DNA of 64,000 bases from Hyphomicrobiales bacterium (GTDB lineage Bacteria; Pseudomonadota; Alphaproteobacteria; Rhizobiales; Xanthobacteraceae), in NCBI GenBank assembly GCA_021732215.1, contig JAKFVL010000023.1:62001-126000 (forward strand), read 5' to 3'. This document shows positions 8,837 to 60,863 of this stretch, one piece after another. The position numbers were made by a program, and so were the translations under genes. Each line of letters opens with the position of its first letter. The stretch's first letter is position 1. A model generated the notes under the pieces. The model made no database searches and was not told where the DNA came from. It saw nothing but the letters and a program-made list of their open reading frames with translations.

Positions 8837-11800
8837 ATGATGCGCGGTCTCATCGGGTTTTGTCTGGCGCGGCGCTCGCTGGTCCTGATCGCGTTCGTGG
8901 CCTTCATCGGCGCCGGGGCGGCCGCCTTCCGTTCGCTGAATATCGAGGCTTATCCGGATCCGGCGCCGCCGATCATCGAAGTCATCGCCCAGTGGCCGGG
9001 CCAGTCGCCCGAGGAAGTCGAACGATACGTTACGACGCCGATCGAGATCGCCGTTTCGAGCACGCCCGGATTGAAATTCACCCGGTCCAATACGGTGTTT
9101 GCGCTCGGCTTCGTCCGGCTGCAGTTCGAGTATGGGCGCGACTATCATTTTGTCCGTCAGCAAACCATCAACCGCTTGAAGGACGCGCAGCTTCCGGCCG
9201 GCGTGCAGCCGGTGATCTCGCCAGCGGGCGGCATCAGCGAAATCTTCCGTTATCAGCTCACCGGCCCGCCCGGCATGAGCGTGATGGAGCTGAAGACTCT
9301 TCAGGACTGGGTTGTCGAGCGAAGGCTGAGGATCGTGTCCGGCGTCGCCGATGTGGCGGTGCTGGGCGGCAACACCAAGGAGTATCAGGTCGAGGTCGAC
9401 TCGAACCGGATGATGTCCTACGGACTGACCCTGCCGCAGATCGTGGCCGCAATCACGACAAGCAATTCAAACGTCGGCGGCCGAACCATCGCGATCGGCG
9501 AGCAATCGGCCAATGTGCGCGGCATCGGCGTCATTACGTCACTCGAGGACATCGGACACATCGTCCTGACCCAGCAGGGCGGGGTGCCCATCCTGCTGGC
9601 CGACGTCGCCAGTATCCAGATCGGCTTCAAGCCACGCATCGGCATGTCGGGCCGAGACGGCGTCACCGACACCGTGACCGGCATCGTGCTGATGCAAAAG
9701 CTGGAACGGACGATGGAAGTCGTCCAGCGCGTGCGCAACGCCGTCCAGCGCATCAATACCGACGGCACGCTGCCGGAGGGCGTGAAGATCGAGCCATTCT
9801 ACGATCGCGGCGATCTGGTCGCGATCACCGTCGATACGGTGCTGCATAATCTCTTGTTCGGCGTCGCGCTGATCTTCCTGATCCAGTGGGTATTTCTCGG
9901 CAACTTGCGATGCGCGATCATTGTCGCGGCGACCATTCCCGTCGCGCTGCTGCTTGCGGTGATGATTACGGTGGCGCGGGGAGAATCCGCGAACTTGCTG
10001 TCCGTGGGCGCGATCGACCTCGGCATCATCGTCGACGGGACAGTGATCATGGTGGAAAATATCTTCCGCCATCTGGCGCATTACGATCCGCATACGCGGC
10101 CGCAGGATACGCCTCGTTTCTCCGATCGCCTGCATCGCATCCTCACTGCAGCGGTCGAGGTCGACAAGGCCATTTTCTTCTCGGTGATCATCACCATCGC
10201 TGCGTTTCTGCCGCTGTTCACCATGCAGGGCGTGGAGGGGCAGATCTTTGGGCCGATGGCGCGCACATATGCATATGCGCTGCTCGGCGCGGTGATCGCG
10301 ACATTTACTGTCACGCCGGTGATGGCTGCCGTTCTACTGCCGGCGCGCGTCGCGGAGATCGAGACGTTCTTCGTCCGGTGGCTGCGCAAAGGTTATCAGG
10401 CGGTGCTTCCCCGCGCGGTCGGCGCCTATAGGCTGTCGCTGGCGATTGCCGGCGTTTTCCTGGTTCTGACGGCGTTCGGCGCGAGCCGTCTCGGCACCGA
10501 ATTCCTGCCGAAGCTGGAAGAAGGCAACATGTGGATTCGAGCGGTGATGCCGCCGACCATCGCGCTCGATGCGGGCAAGGACACGGTGGCGCGCATCCGC
10601 GATGTGATCCGCAGCTACCCTCCGGTCAGGACGGTGGTGTCGGAACAGGGCCGCGGCGAGGAGGGCACGGACCCGGACGGATCGTTCCTCGCCGAGTTCT
10701 TCGTGCCGCTCAAGCCATTCAATGAATGGCCGGGCGGGCTGACGAAAGACATCCTCGTCAAGAAGCTGAGCGAACGCCTCAATCGTGAGTTCGTCGGCGT
10801 CGACTTCAATTTCTCGCAATACATTCAGGACAACATCGAGGAAGCCGTATCGGGCGTGAAGGGCGAGAACTCGATCAAGATTTTCGGCCGCGATCTGGCT
10901 GAACTCGAGAGGTTGTCGAAGGCGGTCAAGACCGAAATCGGAAAGGTCGAAGGCGTGCGCGATCCGGCCGCCTTCAATTTGCTCGGGCAGCCCAATCTCA
11001 TCATCAGGATCAATCGCGAGACAGCGGCGCGATACGGATTTTCGGTCGGTGACATCAACGCGGTTGTTCAGGCGGCGATCGGCGGGCAGGAGGTGTCTCG
11101 CGTCTACGAAGGCGAGAAGAACTTCGCTCTCACGATCCGCTTCGCTCCGGAATATCGTCAGAACATCGATGCCATCCGCGCGATTCCGGTGGCGCTCCCG
11201 AGCACCGACGGCAAATCGCCGCCGGCCTATATCCCGCTGGGCGATCTCGGCGAGGTCAAACTGGAGCCCGGCGCCGCCTATATCTACCGGGAAAACAGCC
11301 AGCGCTTCATCCCGCTGAAATACAGCGTGCGCGACCGCGATCTGGGCTCGACGGTGGCCGAGGCGCAAAGCGCGATCGGCAACAGCGTCAAGATTCCGCA
11401 AGGTTACAGCCTCGAATGGTCGGGCGAATTCGGCGCGCTGCAGGAAGCCAAGCAGCGTTTGCTGGTGATCGTCCCGCTGAGTCTCGTGCTGATCGTGATG
11501 CTGCTCTACAGCCTGTTCAACTCAGTGCGGGACAGCCTGCTTGCCTTGTCGGGGATTCCGTTCGCCGTCGCGGGCGGCATCTGGGGACTTTATGTCGGCG
11601 GCCTGAACTTCAGCGTGTCGGCCGCCGTGGGATTCATCTCGCTGTTCGGCGTATCGGCGATGGATGGAATTCTGCTGGTCTCGTACATCCGCAAGAATTT
11701 CGAAGAACACGGCATGAGTACCGAGCAAGCGATCGTATCCGCCGGCGAAACGCGGATGCGTCAGATCTTCATGACCGGGTTGTCGGCGTGTATCGGTCTT

Positions 11801-12004
11801 GTGCCCGCGGCCTTGTCGACCGGCATCGGTTCACAGGTTCAGCAGCCGCTGGCGTGTGTGATCGTGGGCGGCATGCTGCTGTCGCCGTTCTGCAGCCTTT
11901 TGATCATACCCGTGATCGCGCGTGCGATCATGCGCGAGGCGCCAGACGAAGGTATCCCGCAAAAATCTGCGCGCGATAGCTCACACGGTCTTCAGCCGCA
12001 TTGA
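8837..12004 (+). CDS. RND efflux permease, CusA/CzcA (HME-like) type
   Basis: 1055 aa inner membrane RND pump with twelve expected membrane helices and two large periplasmic loops. TM4 reads GAIDLGIIVDGTVIMVEN. The D-x5-D-x6-E arrangement is that of the heavy-metal efflux (HME) branch (DFGIIVDGAV in CzcA) and not the DD pair of drug pumps. The start ATG at 8837 lies 16 bp after the adaptor gene. With the duct and adaptor genes it completes a tripartite exporter controlled, by inference, by the upstream two-component system. The motif shows the subfamily; which ion or compound is exported is not shown. Confidence 0.9.
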   Translation: MMRGLIGFCLARRSLVLIAFVAFIGAGAAAFRSLNIEAYPDPAPPIIEVIAQWPGQSPEEVERYVTTPIEIAVSSTPGLKFTRSNTVFALGFVRLQFEYGRDYHFVRQQTINRLKDAQLPAGVQPVISPAGGISEIFRYQLTGPPGMSVMELKTLQDWVVERRLRIVSGVADVAVLGGNTKEYQVEVDSNRMMSYGLTLPQIVAAITTSNSNVGGRTIAIGEQSANVRGIGVITSLEDIGHIVLTQQGGVPILLADVASIQIGFKPRIGMSGRDGVTDTVTGIVLMQKLERTMEVVQRVRNAVQRINTDGTLPEGVKIEPFYDRGDLVAITVDTVLHNLLFGVALIFLIQWVFLGNLRCAIIVAATIPVALLLAVMITVARGESANLLSVGAIDLGIIVDGTVIMVENIFRHLAHYDPHTRPQDTPRFSDRLHRILTAAVEVDKAIFFSVIITIAAFLPLFTMQGVEGQIFGPMARTYAYALLGAVIATFTVTPVMAAVLLPARVAEIETFFVRWLRKGYQAVLPRAVGAYRLSLAIAGVFLVLTAFGASRLGTEFLPKLEEGNMWIRAVMPPTIALDAGKDTVARIRDVIRSYPPVRTVVSEQGRGEEGTDPDGSFLAEFFVPLKPFNEWPGGLTKDILVKKLSERLNREFVGVDFNFSQYIQDNIEEAVSGVKGENSIKIFGRDLAELERLSKAVKTEIGKVEGVRDPAAFNLLGQPNLIIRINRETAARYGFSVGDINAVVQAAIGGQEVSRVYEGEKNFALTIRFAPEYRQNIDAIRAIPVALPSTDGKSPPAYIPLGDLGEVKLEPGAAYIYRENSQRFIPLKYSVRDRDLGSTVAEAQSAIGNSVKIPQGYSLEWSGEFGALQEAKQRLLVIVPLSLVLIVMLLYSLFNSVRDSLLALSGIPFAVAGGIWGLYVGGLNFSVSAAVGFISLFGVSAMDGILLVSYIRKNFEEHGMSTEQAIVSAGETRMRQIFMTGLSACIGLVPAALSTGIGSQVQQPLACVIVGGMLLSPFCSLLIIPVIARAIMREAPDEGIPQKSARDSSHGLQPH

Positions 12005-27273: not shown

Positions 27274-28236
27274 ATGAAGCGGTTTACCGGATGCGCTGCG
27301 ATTGTTGCCGGTGTCTTGATTTCGGTTGCAGCACAGGCCGAAACGTGGCCGTCGCGCATCATCAAGGCCGTCGTTCCGTTCGGCGCGGGCAGCGCGACCG
27401 ACGTCGTCCCGCGGCTCGTTTTCGAGAAGATCGGTGCCGAACTCGGCCAGCCCATTACGGTCGAAAATCGGGCCGGTGCGGGAGGCACCGTAGGCTCGAC
27501 GGCCGTGGCGCGAGCGGAGCCGGACGGCTACACGCTGATGGCTCATTCATCGGCGCACACGATCGCCCCGTCGATCTTCACGGACATCAAATACGATCCG
27601 GCAAAGGATTTTTCATCCGTGCTGATGATCGGCTACAGCGCCAATGTGATGATCACGTCACCATCGAAACCGTGGAAAACGGTTCAGGAGTTTGTCGCGG
27701 CGGCCAAGGACAAGAACGCTGCGATGACGTTTGGCTCGGTCGGGGTTGGCTCCGCCGTCCATATCAGCGCCGAGAAATTCAAGCTCGCGGCCGGGTTCGA
27801 TGCGACGCACGTTCCTTATCGCGGTGGCTCAGAGGTGATCTCCGATATTCTCGGCGGTCGCATCGATTTCTATTTCTGTCCGCTCTCGACCGCCTTGCCG
27901 CTCATCAAGGGAGGTCAGGTCCGCGCGCTTGTCATTTCGACCGACAAGCGTTCCGCCGAGTTGCCGGATATACCGACGCCGCTGGAGGCGGGTTACAAGA
28001 ACGGTGAGACCGCCATCTGGTTCGGCGTATTCATGCCGTCAAAAACGCCGCGCGATATCGTCGAGAGGTTCTATGCCGCCGGCAGCAAGGTGCTGGCTAC
28101 TCCAGAAATGCAGAAGGACTTGCGCCGTCTTGGCGTCGATCCATTGCCGATGACACCATCGCAGATGGATGAATTTGTCGGCCGTGAGCTTGCGGCCAAC
28201 GCGGCTCTGGTGAAGGCGGCAGGTATCAAGCAGTAG
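27274..28236 (+). CDS. Tripartite tricarboxylate transporter substrate-binding protein (TctC/Bug)
   Basis: 320 aa with a signal peptide ending VAAQA. Bug-family pattern: WPSRIIKAVVPFGAGSATDV, ENRAGAGGTVG, YTLMAHSSAH, FGSVGVGSAVHISAEKF, HVPYRGGSEVISDILGGRID. It is a periplasmic receptor for carboxylic acids or related solutes. No TctA/TctB membrane genes are near, which is common for Bug proteins in Burkholderiales and Bradyrhizobium-type bacteria. The downstream liv/aldehyde dehydrogenase operon converges on it. Preceded by GGAGCAGG. Confidence 0.92.
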   Translation: MKRFTGCAAIVAGVLISVAAQAETWPSRIIKAVVPFGAGSATDVVPRLVFEKIGAELGQPITVENRAGAGGTVGSTAVARAEPDGYTLMAHSSAHTIAPSIFTDIKYDPAKDFSSVLMIGYSANVMITSPSKPWKTVQEFVAAAKDKNAAMTFGSVGVGSAVHISAEKFKLAAGFDATHVPYRGGSEVISDILGGRIDFYFCPLSTALPLIKGGQVRALVISTDKRSAELPDIPTPLEAGYKNGETAIWFGVFMPSKTPRDIVERFYAAGSKVLATPEMQKDLRRLGVDPLPMTPSQMDEFVGRELAANAALVKAAGIKQ

Positions 28237-28264: not shown

Positions 28265-29716
28265 TCAGATCGGATAGTGCTGCGGTCCGGTCTCGATCGT
28301 GATCCAGCGCAACTCGGTGAATTCGGCGATCCCAGCCTTGCCGCCGAAGCGGCCATATCCTGACGCCTTGGCTCCGCCAAACGGCATTTGTGCCTCGTCA
28401 TGCACCGTCGGTCCGTTGACGTGACAAATGCCGGATTCGATCCGTTTGGCGATGTCGAACGCGCGGGCGATGTCCTTGCCGAATACGGCGGCGGACAAGC
28501 CGTATTCCGTGTCGTTGGCGACGCGCACGGCTTCATCGGCTCCGTTAACGCGAACCACGCAGGCGACCGGGCCGAATGATTCCTCACCATAGATGCGCAT
28601 CGACGAGTTGACGCGGTCGAGCACGGTGGCCGACATCAGCGTGCCTTCGGCGCGTCCTCCGGCGACGATCTTCGCGCCTTTGCTGACCGCATCGTTGACC
28701 AGAGCCTGAATGCGCGTTGCGGCATCGATGCCTATCAGAGACCCGAGCGGCGTGTTCCCCTTGCGCGGATCGCCCGCAACCAGCGAGCCGGCTTTGGTTG
28801 CGAGCTTGGCAACGAAGGCATCCGCGATCTTCTCGTCCACGACAAGGCGCTCGGTCGACATGCAGATCTGACCCTGGTTCATGAATGCCCCGAAGCCGGC
28901 GGCGGCCACTGCTGCATCGAGATCGGCGTCGTCGAGCACGATCATCGGCGCCTTGCCGCCGAGTTCGAGCAGAGCCGGCTTCAGATGCTTCGCTGCAACC
29001 TGTGCGATGATACGGCCGACACGGGTCGAGCCGGTGAAGTTGATCCGCCGCACCGCCGGATGCGCGATCAATGCTTCGATCAAAGCGGGCGCGTCCTCTG
29101 GCGCATTGGTCAGAACATTAAGAACGCCAGGAGGCAGACCGGCTTCGCGCAAGCACTCGGCGATCAGGCGGTGCGTACCGGGACATATTTCGGATGCCTT
29201 GAGAACCACCGTATTGCCGCACGCGAGCGGCAAGGCCAATGCACGCACGCCGAGGATGACCGGCGCGTTCCAGGGCGCCATGCTGAGCACGACACCCGCA
29301 GGCTGGCGGATCGCCATCGAGAGACATCCCGGTTTATCGGACGGGATGACCTCGCCGGAAATCTGCGTCGTCATGGACGCCGCTTCGCGCAGCATCCCGG
29401 ACGCCAGATGCACGTTGAACCCCGCCCAGCCAGCGGTCGCGCCGGTTTCCGCAGCCATCAGTTCGATGAAACGCGGTGCCTTCGATACCAGAATGTCAGC
29501 GGCCTTCAGCAGGATCATGCGGCGTGCGTTCGGACCGGTCGCCGACCATGCCGGGAAAGCCGCTGCAGCTGAATCGGCTGCGCGCTTGGCGTCGGCAATC
29601 TGCGCCGCGGCGGCCCGGCTCGCGATATCGCCCGTCACGGGATTGAGACGATCGAATGTTGCGCCGTTCGACGCCGGCACATCCTTGCTTTCTAGCAACA
29701 GGGCGATCTCGTTCAT
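28265..29716 (-). CDS. Aldehyde dehydrogenase (vanillin/benzaldehyde/salicylaldehyde dehydrogenase-like)
   Basis: 483 aa when started at the internal ATG 29716, the normal length for NAD(P)-dependent aldehyde dehydrogenases. Catalytic Glu in LLELGGKAPMIV, catalytic Cys in NQGQICMSTERLV, cofactor loop FTGSTRVGRII, and PWNAPVILGVRALALPLACG for the Asn/Pro region. The style (GQICMST, SSMRIYGEESFGPV) is that of aromatic-aldehyde dehydrogenases; substrate is inference. It is co-transcribed with a Liv-type importer, suggesting that the imported solute is degraded through an aldehyde. The frame is continuous with the upstream ATPase, see the overlapping fusion entry. Confidence 0.85.
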   Translation of the reverse strand: MNEIALLLESKDVPASNGATFDRLNPVTGDIASRAAAAQIADAKRAADSAAAAFPAWSATGPNARRMILLKAADILVSKAPRFIELMAAETGATAGWAGFNVHLASGMLREAASMTTQISGEVIPSDKPGCLSMAIRQPAGVVLSMAPWNAPVILGVRALALPLACGNTVVLKASEICPGTHRLIAECLREAGLPPGVLNVLTNAPEDAPALIEALIAHPAVRRINFTGSTRVGRIIAQVAAKHLKPALLELGGKAPMIVLDDADLDAAVAAAGFGAFMNQGQICMSTERLVVDEKIADAFVAKLATKAGSLVAGDPRKGNTPLGSLIGIDAATRIQALVNDAVSKGAKIVAGGRAEGTLMSATVLDRVNSSMRIYGEESFGPVACVVRVNGADEAVRVANDTEYGLSAAVFGKDIARAFDIAKRIESGICHVNGPTVHDEAQMPFGGAKASGYGRFGGKAGIAEFTELRWITIETGPQHYPI

Positions 29717-30481
29717 GATTTTTTCTCCCTTTGGAGCGGCAGTGATGTGGATCTGTTGACTGACAGCCGGTGGCCCGCCCCCGAGATACGCCCGCTGGAC
29801 GGCCGGATTGGCTTTGAGATTTGCAGCCGTATCGTGATCGACGATGGACCCGTTTTCGAGCACGTAACCGCGGTCAGCGATGCGCAGGCTCTCCTGCGCG
29901 TTCTGTTCGACGAGAAGCAATCCCACGCCGGATTCGCGCACGTGACGCAGAGTCGCGAACAGTTCGTGCACCATCACCGGCGAGAGGCCGAGCGACGGCT
30001 CGTCGAGCAGAAGGATATCGGGATTCGACATCAGCGCGCGGCCGATGGCGAGCATCTGCTGTTCTCCGCCGCTCATGGTGCGCGCCACCTGCGAAGCACG
30101 CTCACGCAGACGCGGGAACAAATTCAGGACTTTTTCGCGGCGCTCGGCTTCGCCATCACGTGCGCGTTTCGGGTTCGCGCCGAGCAGCAGGTTTTCCCTG
30201 ACCGTCAGTTCTCCGAAAATGCCCCGGCCTTCCGGCACCAGCGCCAACCCATGCTCGACAACGTCGTGTGCGGGAAGGGCGGACAGGTCGTGGCCCCCGA
30301 GCTTGACCTGTTTGCCGGGCAGGGTGCGGACGACGCCCGCAATGGCTTTCAGCAGCGACGTCTTGCCTGCGCCGTTCGCGCCGAGAATCGTCACGATCTC
30401 GCCGCGGCCGACATCGAGCGCCACGTTGTCGAGTGCGCGGTGCTGGCCATAAACGACACTGAGACTGGCGACCTCAAGCAT
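28265..30481 (-). CDS. LivF-like ABC ATPase fused in frame to aldehyde dehydrogenase
   Basis: One uninterrupted 738-codon frame. Residues 1-237 are a complete LivF-type ATPase: Walker A GANGAGKTS, LVPEGRGIFGELTVRENLLL, signature MSGGEQQML, Walker B ILLLDEPSLGLS and the usual C-terminal YLGGG. Instead of stopping there, the frame passes through about 17 residues (PPAVSQQIHITAAPKGEKI) into an aldehyde dehydrogenase that starts with its own Met at residue 256. That internal ATG (29716) has AAAGGGAG upstream. The cell may therefore make a fusion protein, a separate dehydrogenase, or both. The ATPase energises the Liv-type importer 30474-34275. Its ATG overlaps the LivG stop by 8 bp. Confidence 0.75.
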   Translation of the reverse strand: MLEVASLSVVYGQHRALDNVALDVGRGEIVTILGANGAGKTSLLKAIAGVVRTLPGKQVKLGGHDLSALPAHDVVEHGLALVPEGRGIFGELTVRENLLLGANPKRARDGEAERREKVLNLFPRLRERASQVARTMSGGEQQMLAIGRALMSNPDILLLDEPSLGLSPVMVHELFATLRHVRESGVGLLLVEQNAQESLRIADRGYVLENGSIVDHDTAANLKANPAVQRAYLGGGPPAVSQQIHITAAPKGEKIMNEIALLLESKDVPASNGATFDRLNPVTGDIASRAAAAQIADAKRAADSAAAAFPAWSATGPNARRMILLKAADILVSKAPRFIELMAAETGATAGWAGFNVHLASGMLREAASMTTQISGEVIPSDKPGCLSMAIRQPAGVVLSMAPWNAPVILGVRALALPLACGNTVVLKASEICPGTHRLIAECLREAGLPPGVLNVLTNAPEDAPALIEALIAHPAVRRINFTGSTRVGRIIAQVAAKHLKPALLELGGKAPMIVLDDADLDAAVAAAGFGAFMNQGQICMSTERLVVDEKIADAFVAKLATKAGSLVAGDPRKGNTPLGSLIGIDAATRIQALVNDAVSKGAKIVAGGRAEGTLMSATVLDRVNSSMRIYGEESFGPVACVVRVNGADEAVRVANDTEYGLSAAVFGKDIARAFDIAKRIESGICHVNGPTVHDEAQMPFGGAKASGYGRFGGKAGIAEFTELRWITIETGPQHYPI

Positions 30482-31217
30482 GGGCGGCTACCCCGCCGAG
30501 GTAGGCTTCGACGACAACAGGATTCGACAGCACATCAGATGTGGCGCCTTCCGCGATCTTCCGCCCGCTGCTCATGACGACGCAGCGGTCGCACAGCGCC
30601 CGCACCGCGGCCATCACATGTTCAACCAGCACAACAGTAATGCCGTCGTCCTTCAGCGAGCGGATCAGGTCGATGCCGATCGTCAGTTCTGACGGATTAA
30701 GGCCGGCGAGCCATTCATCGAGCAACAGCAACTGCGGCCCAGCGGCCAGCGCGCGCGCCAGTTCGAGACGTTTTCGATCGATGTAGGTCAGGTCGGCGGC
30801 TGGCCGGTTTCCCTGTCCAGCCAGGCCAACACGATCCAGCAGCGCGGTGATGTCAGACTCGATCCCCGCTGCCCGGACCTGCGGCTTGTTGAACACAATC
30901 CCGGCTCTGATGTTGTCCCGGCAATCCATACCGTCGAGCACGCGAACAAGCTGGAACGTCCGCGTCAGCCCGAGGCGAGCGATCTTGAACGCAGGCAGCC
31001 CGGATATGTCATGTCCGTTCAGGCGAATGGCTCCGGCATCGGAACGCAGCAGGCCTGACATGAGATTGAGCGCTGTTGTCTTGCCTGAACCGTTGGGGCC
31101 GAGCAGGCCGAGAACCTCGCCGCTTGCGACGCTGAAGCTCAGGTCATTGACCGCGACAAGGCCGCCAAAGGCGCGTCTGAGTTTTTCAACGTCGAGTATG
31201 TGCTGTGGCCCGCTCAT
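30474..31217 (-). CDS. ABC transporter ATP-binding protein, LivG-like
   Basis: 247 aa. Walker A GPNGSGKTT and LTRTFQLVRVLDGM as in LivG. Two motifs deviate: the signature is LTYIDRKRLELARALA and Walker B is LLLLDEWLAG, with Trp where Pro is usual. LivG proteins often have a relaxed signature (LPYGDQRR), so activity may be retained. Switch His is in VLVEHVMAAV. The ATG overlaps the permease stop (ATGA) and its stop overlaps the next ATPase start, so the operon is tightly coupled. Confidence 0.88.
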   Translation of the reverse strand: MSGPQHILDVEKLRRAFGGLVAVNDLSFSVASGEVLGLLGPNGSGKTTALNLMSGLLRSDAGAIRLNGHDISGLPAFKIARLGLTRTFQLVRVLDGMDCRDNIRAGIVFNKPQVRAAGIESDITALLDRVGLAGQGNRPAADLTYIDRKRLELARALAAGPQLLLLDEWLAGLNPSELTIGIDLIRSLKDDGITVVLVEHVMAAVRALCDRCVVMSSGRKIAEGATSDVLSNPVVVEAYLGGVAAHA

Positions 31218-32158
31218 GCGACGGCTCGCGGTTTGAAAGTCTCGCCCCACCTGGCCTTGCCCGACTCGAGCAGGCCCGCGACGCCACGCGGCAGCAGGTA
31301 GACAATGAGCAGAAAGATGCATCCGAGGATGATGGTGAAGGTGTTCGGAAAGCGCGCGCTCAGCAGCTCGAACAGAATCACCAGCGGTACGGCGCCAAGG
31401 ATTGGGCCCCATAGCCGGTGCGCGCCGCCGAGGAGGGCCATGATCAACACCTGAAACGAGATCATCGCATTGAACGCGATCGACGGCTCGATGTAGGTCC
31501 AGCGCGGCGCCATGATCGCGCCGACGATCGTCATGATGGTCGCGCTTATGGTGAACAACGCGACTTTGGCAATCGTTGTATTGATGCCGCAGTGCGTGGC
31601 GACGGTTTCGTCCTCACCGATAATACGCAGCGCGAAGCCCAGACGCGATCGCGCGACCAGCCATCCGATCAGGAAAACGGCGATAGCCAGGATCAGGAGT
31701 TGCCAATAGATATCGCTTTGCGTGACGTTGACGAACACATAGCGGCCGAGGACGCGCGATTTGTTGACCTCGAACCAGACAACAAGCTGACGGACCAGTT
31801 CGGCCAGTCCGAACGTGAAGATCACGAAATAGACGCCGCTGAGCCGCAGCGTCGACAACCCGACGACAGCCGCAAGGATGGCGCCGAGGCTTGCCGCGAC
31901 AACAAGAACAACCGGCCAAGGCAGAACCTCGCCGAGCACGGCGACCGTATAAGCGCCGACGCCAAAGAACGCCGTTGTTGCCAGCGACACATAGCGGGTC
32001 GGGCCGGAAAACATTCCCCATGCGGTGGCCAGCACCGTGTACTGCAGCAGGCTGATTGCAAGCGCCAGATAATATGGATTGGCCAACCGCGGCACGAACG
32101 CGAGCAGCACGATTGCCGCCAGCGCGATCGCGCCCAGCGTCGTCGTTCGCAGCGTCAT
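31214..32158 (-). CDS. Branched-chain amino acid-type ABC permease, LivM-like
   Basis: 314 aa from the ATG at 32158, which overlaps the LivH-like stop (ATGA). Nine or ten membrane helices. LivM pattern: NPYYLALAISLLQYTVLATA, GQ-like GPTRYVSLATTAFFGVGAYT, LSGVYFVIFTFGLAELVRQL, SRLGFALRIIGEDETVATHCGI. With the LivH-like partner it forms the inner membrane channel. LivHM-type systems import branched-chain amino acids, amides, urea or aromatic acids. Confidence 0.92.
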   Translation of the reverse strand: MTLRTTTLGAIALAAIVLLAFVPRLANPYYLALAISLLQYTVLATAWGMFSGPTRYVSLATTAFFGVGAYTVAVLGEVLPWPVVLVVAASLGAILAAVVGLSTLRLSGVYFVIFTFGLAELVRQLVVWFEVNKSRVLGRYVFVNVTQSDIYWQLLILAIAVFLIGWLVARSRLGFALRIIGEDETVATHCGINTTIAKVALFTISATIMTIVGAIMAPRWTYIEPSIAFNAMISFQVLIMALLGGAHRLWGPILGAVPLVILFELLSARFPNTFTIILGCIFLLIVYLLPRGVAGLLESGKARWGETFKPRAVA

Positions 32159-33024
32159 CGTGTCGCCCTGCCGAACAGGCCTGCGGGCTTCACGAGCAAT
32201 ACCGCGAGAAACAATGCGAAGTTGACGGCAAGCGTCAGTCCCGGATCGACCAGCGATGCGACAAGCGCTTCGCTCACTCCCAGCAGCAATCCCGCGATCA
32301 GACAACCGAGAATGTTGCCGACGCCGCCCATCACCACGATGATGAGCGCCTTCATCGTGAATACGACGCCGGACGATGCGCTGAAGGTGAGAAAGGTGCT
32401 GACCAGCACGCCGGCCGCGGCCACCAGCGCACCACCCAGAGCGAAAGTGAGTGCGGACGTGCGCTCCACATTGATGGCGACAAGCTGGGCTGCGGCCGGA
32501 TCGACCGCAACCGCGCGGATCGCGGTGCCTGCGCGAGTGCGTGTCAGCGCAAGATAAAGAGCCAGCCCGAGGACGACCGTGATGCCCAGCGCGGCGAGAC
32601 GGTTGGCGGAGAGCGTTTCGCCGAGCACCTGAACCGGGAAGGCCAGATACGAATAGCTGTAGTAGGCGCCGCCGAACATCGACTGCATCGAGCCCTGAAC
32701 GATGAAGGTCAGTCCGAAGGTCGCCAGAATGCTGTCGACCTCAAGCGCGTCGCGCGTTCGGGCGCGTCGCACCAGAGGCGTCAGCAGTAGCTTGTAAACG
32801 GCGAAGTTCACGGCAAAGGCGGCCGGAACCACAAACGCCATCCCGACGAACGGGCTGAGCGCCCATCCGGTGAACAGCCAGTGCGCTGTGAAGGCGGCGG
32901 CAATCAGAAACTCGCCGTAAGACAGGTTCATGATCCGCGCGACCCCGTACTGGAGCGTCAGCCCCATCGCGATCAACGCATACATGCCGCCCAGCATCAG
33001 GCCGGTCAGGATAGCGTTTGTCAT
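32155..33024 (-). CDS. Branched-chain amino acid-type ABC permease, LivH-like
   Basis: 289 aa, hydrophobic throughout. LivH pattern: LTGLMLGGMYALIAMGLTLQ, YGVARIMNLSYGEFLI, RAVAVDPAAAQLVAINVERT and MKALIIVVMGGVGNILG. It is the partner of the LivM-like permease. It starts 28 bp after the binding-protein stop. Confidence 0.92.
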   Translation of the reverse strand: MTNAILTGLMLGGMYALIAMGLTLQYGVARIMNLSYGEFLIAAAFTAHWLFTGWALSPFVGMAFVVPAAFAVNFAVYKLLLTPLVRRARTRDALEVDSILATFGLTFIVQGSMQSMFGGAYYSYSYLAFPVQVLGETLSANRLAALGITVVLGLALYLALTRTRAGTAIRAVAVDPAAAQLVAINVERTSALTFALGGALVAAAGVLVSTFLTFSASSGVVFTMKALIIVVMGGVGNILGCLIAGLLLGVSEALVASLVDPGLTLAVNFALFLAVLLVKPAGLFGRATR

Positions 33025-33051: not shown

Positions 33052-34275
33052 TTATTGCGCCACCCAAGCCGGCTTCGGCACGACGGCCTTGCGCGCGCCT
33101 TCGTTGGCGGCGGGCGCGACGCCGTAGAACTCGCCGTCCTGCCACTGGCCGACCCACCAGTAACGTGTTGGCATGTTGTTCTCGAGCTTCACCTTGCCGA
33201 TCACCGTGTCGAACGTGCCCGTCTGCAGTTCCTTGATGACGGCCGCACGGTCGACCTTGCCGACCTTCTCGATGGCCTGTTGCAGCATCTGGAGGCTGGC
33301 GTAGGTCACGGCACTCGCCCAGCGGTCAGGCTCCGCGCCATTTGCCGCGGAGGCTTTGTGTCTGGCGAGATAGTCCTTGATTGCCGGGCTGTCGCCGCTC
33401 CAGCCGCCGATCCCCATCACCCCCTCGGTGTTCTTGCCGAAGCGCTGGCGATAGAGCGGAAATGCCGTCCCGACGCCGGTGTAGAACACCTTCGGATTGA
33501 GCCCGGCAATCCGCGATTGTTCGGTCAGCGCCAGCGTGTCCGGCGGATAGCTGAAGGCGATGAACACGTCCGGATTGAGCGCCTTCACCTCGTTGATGAT
33601 CGGCGCCAGATCCTGTGTGCCGATCGGGTAGCTCTTGTCGTAGGCGAGTTTGAACTTGGCGTCGGTCAAGGCCTTGCGCCCGGCCGACGACAGATCGATG
33701 CCGAAACCGTCGGCGATGCTGACCATCGCCACGGTGTCGCCGATCGCCTTGTCGTCGCGCAGTTTCACGAGCAGGTCGACCAGCGTCTTGGCGGCATCGG
33801 CGCTGGTGCCGAGCAGCCAGAAGCTGTTGGGCCAGCGCTTGGCGAGCTCCGGCGCGCGATCTGTCACGGCAGTCGCGGCGAGATGCGGATAGCCTTCGCG
33901 GTTGAGCGTGGGCCCGACGGCGAGGTTGAGACCCGTGCCCCATGGCGGCAGAATGAAATCGACCTTGTCCTGGTTGACCAGCCGCTCGATGGCGCGGACG
34001 GCTTCTTCGGCGTTCGAGCGATCGTCGTATTGCACGATCTCGATCGGCACGCGCTTGTCGCCGAGCTTGATGCCGCCGGCCGCGTTCACTTCTTTAACCC
34101 ACAACTCATAGTTCGGCAGCGTGGTGACCGCGGCGCCCCCGGTATTCGGGCCCGTTCGCGAAATCGCGTAACCGATCTTGAGCGACGCCTGCGCGTGAGC
34201 TGTGGCGACCAATCCGAACGTGGCAGCACAGACGGATGCGAGCAGCGCCATGCGGCGCGTGATGGTTGTTCCCAT
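33052..34275 (-). CDS. ABC transporter substrate-binding protein, LivK-like (periplasmic binding type 1)
   Basis: 407 aa. Signal peptide ends VATAHAQ. Pattern of the Leu/Ile/Val-binding family: LKIGYAISRTGPNTGGAAVT, WVKEVNAAGGI, VEIVQYDD-like IEIVQYDDRS and DFILPPWGTG. First gene of the operon binding protein-LivH-LivM-LivG-LivF/aldehyde dehydrogenase. GGGAGGAGAAC is a strong ribosome binding site. The divergent AraC gene at 34446 is the probable regulator. Ligand unknown; the aldehyde dehydrogenase at the operon end favours a degradable aromatic or aliphatic solute over a plain amino acid. Confidence 0.9.
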   Translation of the reverse strand: MGTTITRRMALLASVCAATFGLVATAHAQASLKIGYAISRTGPNTGGAAVTTLPNYELWVKEVNAAGGIKLGDKRVPIEIVQYDDRSNAEEAVRAIERLVNQDKVDFILPPWGTGLNLAVGPTLNREGYPHLAATAVTDRAPELAKRWPNSFWLLGTSADAAKTLVDLLVKLRDDKAIGDTVAMVSIADGFGIDLSSAGRKALTDAKFKLAYDKSYPIGTQDLAPIINEVKALNPDVFIAFSYPPDTLALTEQSRIAGLNPKVFYTGVGTAFPLYRQRFGKNTEGVMGIGGWSGDSPAIKDYLARHKASAANGAEPDRWASAVTYASLQMLQQAIEKVGKVDRAAVIKELQTGTFDTVIGKVKLENNMPTRYWWVGQWQDGEFYGVAPAANEGARKAVVPKPAWVAQ

Positions 34276-57695: not shown

Positions 57696-60600
57696 ATGCC
57701 ATCTTTCTTCATCGATCGGCCCATCTTCGCATGGGTGGTGGCTTTTTTCATATGCCTGATCGGCGTGATTGCGATTCCGCAATTGCCGATCGCGCAGTAT
57801 CCGATCATTGCGCCGCCATCGATCTCGATCTCGACCAGCTATCCCGGCGCGTCGCCGGAAAACCTCTACAACAGCGTGACGCGGCTGATCGAGGAGGAGT
57901 TGAACGGCGCCAGCGGCATTCTCAATTTCGAATCCACCAGCGACTCGCTGGGGCAGGTCGAGATCATCGCCAATTTCGTGCCGGGCACCGATTCAAACCT
58001 CGCTTCGGTCGAAGTCCAGAACCGCATCAAGCGGGTTGAAGCGCGGCTGCCGCGCTCGGTGATCCAGCAGGGCATTCTCGTTGAGGAAGCCTCCAGCGCG
58101 GTGCTGCAGATCGTCACGCTGAAATCGACCGACAAGACGCTCGACGAAGTCGGACTCGGCGATTTCATGATCCGCAACGTGCTTGGCGAAATCCGGCGTA
58201 TTCCGGGTGTCGGCCGTGCGACCCTGTTCTCGACGGAGCGTTCGCTGCGTGTCTGGGTCGATCCGACGAAACTTGTCGGTTACGGCCTCAACTCCGACGA
58301 TGTCACGAGGGCAATTGCTGCGCAGAATGCGCAGGTTGCGTCGGGCAGCGTCGGCGCAGAACCCAGCACACCGAACCAGCGCATCTCGGCGCTTGTGCTC
58401 GTCAAAGGCCAGCTCAGTTCGACCGAGGATTTCGGTGCGATCGTGCTGCGTGCCAACGCGGACGGCTCGACCGTGCGGCTGCGCGATGTGGCCCGTATCG
58501 AGATCGGCGGCCTTGGCTACCAGTTCACCACGCGGCTCAACGGCGAGCCGACGGCCGGTCTCTCGGTGTTGCTGTCGCCGACCGGAAATGCGCTCGCCAC
58601 CGCGCGTGCGGTCGAAGCCAAGATGAAGGAACTGTCGAAGTTCTTCCCGGCCAATATCGCCTATGAAATCCCCTACAACATCACACCCGTCGTCCAGGCC
58701 TCCATCACCAAGGTGCTGATAACCCTGCTCGAGGCGGTGGTGCTGGTGTTCGTGGTGATGTTCCTGTTCCTGCAGAACATCCGTTACACCGTTATTCCAA
58801 CAGTGGTCGTGCCGGTGGCGTTGCTCGGCACCAGCGCGATGCTGCTGCTGTTCGGATACTCGATCAACATTCTCACCATGTTCGGCATGGTGTTGGCGAT
58901 CGGCATCATCGTCGATGACGCCATCGTCGTCGTCGAGAACGTCGAGCGCATCATGGCGGAGGAAGGGCTCCCGCCAAAGGAAGCCACCCGCAAGGCGATG
59001 GGTCAGATCACCAGCGCCATCGTCGGCATCACGCTCGTGCTGGTCGCAGTGTTTCTGCCGATGGCGTTCTTTCCCGGATCGGTCGGCATCATCTATCGGC
59101 AATTCTCCGTCACGATGGCATCGGCGATCGGCTTCTCCGCGCTGATGGCGCTATCGCTGACGCCTGCTTTGTGCGCGACGTTCCTCAAACCCGTCGCGGC
59201 CGGACATGGCCACGCGCGGAAGGGTTTTTTCGGACTGTTCAACCGCGCGCTCGACAAGACCAAGAATGGCTACAGCGGCGTCGTGCGCTGGTCGATCGTG
59301 CGCACCGGGCGGCTGCTTGTGCTCTATGCCGTCATTATCGCCGCTGTTGCGTGGGCATTCGTGCGGCTGCCGGGCGGCTTCCTGCCGATCGACGATCAGG
59401 GCTTCATTACTGTCGATGTGCAGACGCCGTCGGATTCTGCATTCAGCCGGACCGCGAACGCCGTCGATCAGGTGGAGAAATATCTCGCTCAGAGATCCGG
59501 CGTCGATGAGGTGACATTCCTCACCGGCTTCAGCTTTCTCGGTCAGGGCCAGAACACGGCGCAGGCGTTCGTGACGCTGAAAGACTGGTCGGAGCGAGGA
59601 CCGAAAGACTCCGCGGCGGCGATCGTCGACGACGTCAATCGCAATCTTCTTTCGGTCCGCGACGCCAAGATCACGGCCCAGCAGCCGCCGCCGATCGACA
59701 ACCTCGGCAATTCGTCCGGCTTCAGCTTCCGGCTTCAGGATCGCGGACAGAAGGGTTACGCGGCGCTGATTGCCGCGAAGGATCAACTGCTGGCTGCGGC
59801 GAACAAGAGCCCGGTCCTGCAGGGTGTTTTCGTCGAAGGCTTGCCTCCGGCGCCGCAGGTGCAACTCAACGTCGATCGCGAAAAGGCGAGTGCGCTCGGC
59901 GTCACGTTCGAGGAAATCAACAACACGATCTCGACCAATCTCGGCTCGAACTACGTCAACGACTTCCCCAATCGCGGACGCATGCAGCGCGTCATCGTGC
60001 AGTCGGATGCGATCGCGCGCATGAACGCCAACGACATCCTGTCCTACAACGTCAAGAACAGCCGTGGCCAGCTTGTGCCATTGGCTTCCGTTGCGACAGT
60101 GGAATGGATCGTCGGTCCGACGCAGATCGTCGGCTTCAACTATTATCCATCGATCCGTATCAGCGGCAGCGCGCGGAACGGATTCACGTCGGGTGATGCC
60201 ATCGCCGAGATGGAACGGCTTACGGCGGCGTTGCCGCGCGGTTTCGGTTATGAATGGACCGGTCAGTCGCTGCAGGAAAAGCTGTCCGGTTCGCAGGCGC
60301 CGTTCCTGCTCGCGCTGTCGGCGCTGGTTGTCTTCCTGTGCCTGGCTGCCCTTTATGAGAGCTGGACCATTCCGGTCGCGGTGCTGATGACCGTGCCGCT
60401 TGGAATTCTTGGCGCGGTCGTGGCGGCTATGCTTCGCGGCTTGCCGAATGACGTCTATTTTACAGTCGGGCTCATCACCATCATCGGGCTGGCGGCGAAG
60501 GACGCGATCCTCATCATTGAGTTCGCCAAGGATCTACGCGCGCAGGGCAAGCCGATCCTGGAGGCGACGGCGGAAGCCTGCCATCTTCGATTCCGGCCGA

Positions 60601-60863
60601 TCCTGATGACCGGATTTGCCTTCGTGTGCGGTGTGCTGCCGATGGCGATCGCGACCGGCGCCGGCGGCCAAAGCCAGCAGGCAATCGGCACTATCGTCAT
60701 GGGCGGCATGATAGCGGTGGTGGTGCTGGCGCTGCTGATGGTGCCGGTGTTCTTTGTCGGTGTGCTGAAAGCGTTCTCGAAGAAGGTCCGCGAAGAGGCA
60801 AAAGAGTTGCCGGAAGCAGAGACATCGGCTCCGCATGGCGAGGCTAGGCCACATTCGGCGTAA
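57696..60863 (+). CDS. RND multidrug efflux permease (AcrB/MexB, HAE-1 type)
   Basis: 1055 aa. MPSFFIDRPIFAWVVAFFIC is the typical AcrB N-terminus. TM4 has the proton-relay pair in AIGIIVDDAIVVVENVERIM (DD, unlike the pump at 8837). GFSFLGQGQNTAQAFVTLK and the C-terminal RFRPILMTGFAFVCGVLPMA fit the HAE-1 drug pumps. It exports hydrophobic or amphiphilic compounds. No outer membrane duct gene follows, so it must use one encoded elsewhere, perhaps even the NodT-type duct at 6065. Confidence 0.94.
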   Translation: MPSFFIDRPIFAWVVAFFICLIGVIAIPQLPIAQYPIIAPPSISISTSYPGASPENLYNSVTRLIEEELNGASGILNFESTSDSLGQVEIIANFVPGTDSNLASVEVQNRIKRVEARLPRSVIQQGILVEEASSAVLQIVTLKSTDKTLDEVGLGDFMIRNVLGEIRRIPGVGRATLFSTERSLRVWVDPTKLVGYGLNSDDVTRAIAAQNAQVASGSVGAEPSTPNQRISALVLVKGQLSSTEDFGAIVLRANADGSTVRLRDVARIEIGGLGYQFTTRLNGEPTAGLSVLLSPTGNALATARAVEAKMKELSKFFPANIAYEIPYNITPVVQASITKVLITLLEAVVLVFVVMFLFLQNIRYTVIPTVVVPVALLGTSAMLLLFGYSINILTMFGMVLAIGIIVDDAIVVVENVERIMAEEGLPPKEATRKAMGQITSAIVGITLVLVAVFLPMAFFPGSVGIIYRQFSVTMASAIGFSALMALSLTPALCATFLKPVAAGHGHARKGFFGLFNRALDKTKNGYSGVVRWSIVRTGRLLVLYAVIIAAVAWAFVRLPGGFLPIDDQGFITVDVQTPSDSAFSRTANAVDQVEKYLAQRSGVDEVTFLTGFSFLGQGQNTAQAFVTLKDWSERGPKDSAAAIVDDVNRNLLSVRDAKITAQQPPPIDNLGNSSGFSFRLQDRGQKGYAALIAAKDQLLAAANKSPVLQGVFVEGLPPAPQVQLNVDREKASALGVTFEEINNTISTNLGSNYVNDFPNRGRMQRVIVQSDAIARMNANDILSYNVKNSRGQLVPLASVATVEWIVGPTQIVGFNYYPSIRISGSARNGFTSGDAIAEMERLTAALPRGFGYEWTGQSLQEKLSGSQAPFLLALSALVVFLCLAALYESWTIPVAVLMTVPLGILGAVVAAMLRGLPNDVYFTVGLITIIGLAAKDAILIIEFAKDLRAQGKPILEATAEACHLRFRPILMTGFAFVCGVLPMAIATGAGGQSQQAIGTIVMGGMIAVVVLALLMVPVFFVGVLKAFSKKVREEAKELPEAETSAPHGEARPHSA

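Follow-up and report, generated by a model that had tools for sequence, protein, structure and literature searches.

Does the fusion of a LivF-type transport ATPase with an aldehyde dehydrogenase (ALDH), which closes a transporter operon on this contig, represent an accidental loss of a stop codon or a gene from which two useful proteins may be made? The window, i.e., the whole 64,000-nucleotide stretch that was analyzed and in which all positions are given, carries a single open reading frame of 738 codons on the minus strand (28265..30481, read from 30481), with zero internal stops in the ORF listing and its translation. Pfam places ABC_tran at residues 17-163 and Aldedh at residues 272-727 of the 738-aa protein. 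Past the AYLGGG end of LivF the frame continues through a linker of 57 nt or 19 codons (PPAVSQQIHITAAPKGEKI; 29717..29773, minus strand) and enters the ALDH at its methionine (29716), followed by NEIALLL. The usual LivF stop codon is missing in the window and both domains are complete, in agreement with the sequence-only reading, which had described a LivF without its own stop running in frame into a complete ALDH. Linker-sized shuffles (19 codons with the same composition) are stop-free about half the time, so an open linker is by itself not improbable; the weight of the window case comes from the absence of the usual LivF stop, set against the TGA present in a genome of the same genus (G016). 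Linker residues 235-253 are predicted to be disordered (pLDDT <50) in a structure prediction of the window protein built from a shallow, 20-row alignment (pTM 0.51), from which we use the low-confidence linker alone.

The ATPase domain (residues 1-236; 29774..30481, minus strand) has a Walker A motif (GANGAGKT), a signature motif (MSGGEQQ) and a Walker B motif (LLLLDEP), and the LivF motif columns are mostly invariant across 20 fused proteins. Its top NCBIfam match is LivF NF008626 (E = 1.5e-76, profile positions 5-237 of 237 covered), although the equivalog cutoff for the leucine LivF is failed (257 vs. 441 bits); the ATPase is LivF-like by position and sequence, and is not certified as the LivF of a leucine transporter. 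Upstream on the same strand are genes for a LivG-type ATPase (30474..31217), which overlaps the LivF start by 8 nt, a LivM-type permease (31214..32158), which overlaps LivG by 4 nt, a LivH-type permease (32155..33024) and the periplasmic solute-binding protein of the transporter (33052..34275; Pfam Peripla_BP_6, E = 5e-54). The two permeases are assigned from operon position and order, and the order is annotated likewise in Ensifer. The operon thus reads binding protein, LivH, LivM, LivG, LivF, ALDH, with the LivF-ALDH frame at its end. A gene for a TctC-type solute receptor (27274-28236, plus strand) is convergent with the operon, with 28 bp between the stop codons. Elsewhere, two open frames of 1055 codons each lie at opposite ends of the window (8837-12004 and 57696-60863, plus strand).

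The ALDH domain comprises 483 aa from its own ATG (residues 256-738; 28265..29716, minus strand) and is identified by its closest solved relatives and by invariant columns, among them the intact catalytic motifs with Glu506 in LELGGK and Cys540 in NQGQICM (fusion numbering). The best solved relatives are a salicylaldehyde dehydrogenase (6qhn, E = 1.6e-196), a vanillin dehydrogenase (9ihb, E = 7.7e-190) and NahF (4jz6, E = 1.2e-175). Given these salicylaldehyde and vanillin dehydrogenase relatives, the operon is probably devoted to an aromatic compound, and the importer's cargo is likely to be an aromatic acid or aldehyde. In Ensifer, the separate homologue is followed by genes for an SDR, a TPP enzyme and a member of the 2,4'-dihydroxyacetophenone dioxygenase family; the Pseudoroseomonas homologue adjoins a benzoylformate decarboxylase, and a further homologue (L079) is followed by an FAD monooxygenase-type protein and a lyase.

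Searches of whole genomes in the family, order, class and phylum, together with a scan of genome contigs, yielded 178 distinct ALDH loci, 100 of which have LivF immediately upstream. LivF and ALDH share an uninterrupted frame in 27 of these 100 distinct neighbor pairs, from Alpha- and Betaproteobacteria, a share (27%) that describes the collection and is not a population rate, since the family search was ranked by the joined protein and so favored in-frame pairs, and since some loci were fetched for their long open frames. The fusion in the window is therefore not a unique event. The sequence-only reading knew of no transport ATPase covalently joined to a catabolic enzyme; our full-text literature searches, with most subscription papers outside their reach, likewise turned up no LivF-ALDH fusion, but the architecture itself is recurrent. 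Comparison of orthologues for a stop between the two domains, as proposed from the sequence alone, shows none in the 27 fused pairs and a TGA in G016. The linkers of the 27 fusions range from 30 to 588 nt, and many are ~30-60 residues long and Ala/Pro-rich (e.g., in the Phreatobacter-type group). The longest by far (L140, in genome G010) is Pro/Glu/Ala-rich and spans 588 nt or 196 residues.

Across a tree built from 99 LivF+ALDH pairs, fused and separate states interchange at least six times, all changes being forced by well-supported branches, although this count alone does not separate gains from losses. Most fusions fall in one deep group (38 rows, 24 of them fused, support 94), in which many linkers are long and Ala/Pro-rich; fused states are clustered on the tree, so the number 27 far exceeds that of independent events. 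The window and two other loci (L123 and L124) fall outside this deep group. The window and G016, the sole same-genus genome compared with it, form a sister pair (support 100) within a 24-row clade in which 23 rows are unfused. Inheritance of the window fusion from the deep fused group is rejected on this placement. Both genes are ~95% identical between the window and G016, but G016 has a TGA 27 nt upstream of the ALDH ATG. DNA alignment of the two linkers reveals several changed bases around that TGA, and a single-base loss of the G016 stop is thus rejected as the cause; the linkers are 54 nt in G016 and 57 nt in the window, a difference of exactly three. Most simply, the window fusion would have arisen recently and independently. 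The recent loss of a stop, one of the options raised from the sequence alone, is supported for the window species, as G016 and the other 22 unfused rows of the 24-row clade indicate. On a branch neighboring that of the window species, the LivF of Bradyrhizobium sp. CSA112 (L032/L038) also lacks its stop, but in a frame other than that of the ALDH, into which it runs for 944 nt.

Several comparisons indicate that the frame is maintained among the fused relatives. All 7 linker length changes in sister pairs with at least one fusion are divisible by three, vs. 2 of 11 in separate pairs (Fisher p = 0.002). Pooled linker differences number 73, 49 and 97 at the first, second and third codon positions, respectively, the third being highest (p = 0.0004), and pooled pN/pS is 0.59 in frame vs. 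0.91 and 1.71 in the shifted frames. For the three closest Phreatobacter-type linker pairs, pN/pS is 0.24-0.45 when read in frame and 0.9-2.2 when the frame is shifted, while linkers of other fused groups have values of 0.55-0.80, nearer neutral. Judged from these substitution patterns, Phreatobacter-type linkers evolve as protein. In the deep group the fusion is probably older and maintained. Other junctions of the operon show no fusions between binding protein and LivH (0/36), LivH and LivM (0/37) or LivG and LivF (0/97). The first of these is the fairest control, with a gap of 5-100 nt in 25 of the 36 pairs; LivH-LivM and LivG-LivF are weak controls because the genes mostly overlap in another frame, and we rejected LivG-LivF as a strong control on account of its usual 8-nt overlap. 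LivM and LivG share one frame at 18 of 75 loci (L019-L024, L026, L050, L057, L079, L093, L102, L140-L142, L153-L155), largely in the deep group that also fuses LivF and ALDH, but also in Bradyrhizobium at loci with unfused LivF and ALDH.

The joined gene retains an internal start. A Shine-Dalgarno sequence (AAAGGGAG; 29725..29732, minus strand) sits 8 nt upstream of the ALDH ATG and is followed by an A6 run (29719-29724), which bears out the earlier statement that the ALDH keeps its own ATG (29716) and ribosome binding site. Predicted anti-Shine-Dalgarno pairing is -8.4 kcal/mol at this site vs. a mean of -4.3 kcal/mol for in-frame ATGs elsewhere inside this gene. The ALDH ATG is retained in all 27 fusions, where mean pairing (-7.4 kcal/mol) is like that of separate genes (-7.7 kcal/mol, p = 0.47) and stronger than at in-frame internal ATGs (-4.2 kcal/mol, p = 2e-11); it is undiminished behind linkers of >100 nt, including that of 588 nt. 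An in-frame internal start with its ribosome-binding site is thus kept across the relatives, as in a nested-start gene. In separate relatives the spacing from LivF stop to ALDH ATG is mostly 13-54 nt, distances at which termination-reinitiation is weak in the species where it was measured (PMC10666635), and the ancestral ALDH start was therefore probably autonomous already. A start that was probably autonomous before fusion and stayed so after, together with its retention in every fusion, suggests that two products are made. The option that both forms are made, raised from the sequence alone, is accordingly the best-supported functional reading.

We consider it reasonably probable, judging from the sequence comparisons, that the gene has a nested start and encodes both a transporter-tethered and a free ALDH in what is probably an aromatic-compound importer operon. 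Loss of the LivF stop codon with retention of the ALDH start would have joined the last two genes of the importer operon. Ribosomes translating LivF would read through the linker to yield a LivF-linker-ALDH protein, holding one ALDH subunit at the importer's cytoplasmic side, while entry at the internal Shine-Dalgarno sequence would yield a free 50-kDa ALDH. The free ALDH could then assemble with the tethered subunit at the membrane, a pairing in one oligomer that the disordered linker would permit. Channeling of the imported solute, the remaining option raised from the sequence alone, is unsupported; in ABC importers the ATPase does not itself carry solute. It is the fused relatives outside the window, chiefly those of the deep group, that make the case for a maintained dual product, as the one genus relative compared with the window has a stop. 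The window is a recent, independent case, by its place on the tree, of a gene architecture that recurs and that we did not find described elsewhere. More tentatively, and at less than even probability, we propose that such importers form a recurrent class: the ATPase would be covalently joined to a soluble catabolic enzyme, a conserved nested start would supply the free enzyme, the joined subunit of each importer would serve as a docking subunit for an ALDH oligomer at the membrane, and selection would keep the arrangement in the deep group.

A rival, which we regard as unlikely overall but as serious where the window species is considered by itself, and as far weaker for the deep group, is neutral loss of the stop: LivF would tolerate any C-terminal tail, nearly all ALDH would be translated from the internal ATG, and the fusion would be a harmless by-product. 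Retention of the internal start in 27 of 27 fusions fits this, as do the shortness of the window linker, with about half of its shuffles stop-free, and the out-of-frame stop loss close to the window's lineage (L032/L038), where a 944-nt overlap with the ALDH is apparently tolerated. Against it, length changes in the fused relatives keep the frame, Phreatobacter-type linkers are under coding constraint, and stop-free linkers of up to 196 codons would be unexpected of unselected tails.

The same internal starts bear on the converse proposal, that the fusion is the sole functional product and that the Shine-Dalgarno sequence is a relic or conserved for its codons. Single open frames and the predicted disorder of the window linker are consistent with this, but a relic should drift to the level of internal ATGs, whereas the Shine-Dalgarno sequences behind long linkers, including that of 588 nt, are undecayed; we consider a fusion-only gene improbable. 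Still less probable, to the point of being very doubtful, is an error of sequencing or assembly in the window, by which one base lost or gained near the A6 run masks a normal stop. With one base removed there, LivF would stop at a TGA that shares bases with the ALDH ATG, as in the common ATGA coupling (the change was modeled beside the A6 run, with the same frame and TGA as a change inside it), and this -4 arrangement is found in five separate relatives. However, the window and G016 linkers are exactly three nucleotides apart (57 vs. 54 nt), no nearest relative has the ATGA overlap, and such an error would leave the other 26 fusions unexplained.

If the dual-product reading is correct, an ABC importer bound covalently to a catabolic enzyme would tie uptake to metabolism physically in an unusual way. 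The repeated transitions provide species pairs that differ naturally in the stop, so that the consequences of tethering could be gauged, and retention of the nested start points to a simple route by which fusions may form without loss of the free enzyme. For annotators, there is also a caution that most joined LivF-ALDH genes are not sequencing errors.

The operon resembles branched-chain amino acid type ABC importers (HAAT family, LivFGMH-K) in gene set, gene order and LivF domain, and differs in that the window LivF bears a C-terminal catalytic enzyme. The ALDH matches NahF-type salicylaldehyde/vanillin dehydrogenases (6qhn, 9ihb, 4jz6) over nearly its full length and shares their catalytic Cys/Glu motifs, but is joined to an N-terminal transporter ATPase in 27 of the 100 neighbor pairs. 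Compared with the LivM-LivG permease-ATPase fusions, with which it shares operons and, largely, the deep group, LivF-ALDH links a component of the transporter to a catabolic enzyme and not to a second transporter component, and LivM and LivG are unfused in the window. PutA and ALDH1L1 also have C-terminal ALDH modules, and ALDH thus tolerates an N-terminal partner; in both proteins, however, that partner is an enzyme domain and not a transport ATPase. The architecture belongs to two known kinds of arrangement, gene fusion and nested start, and is not a new kind. Internal in-frame initiation giving two products is established for Cas11b, made from cas8b (PMC11899642). There, as we infer for LivF-ALDH, one gene encodes a long protein and, through a second start within its frame, a shorter one; in LivF-ALDH, by contrast, the short form would be a complete enzyme that is encoded by a separate gene in relatives.
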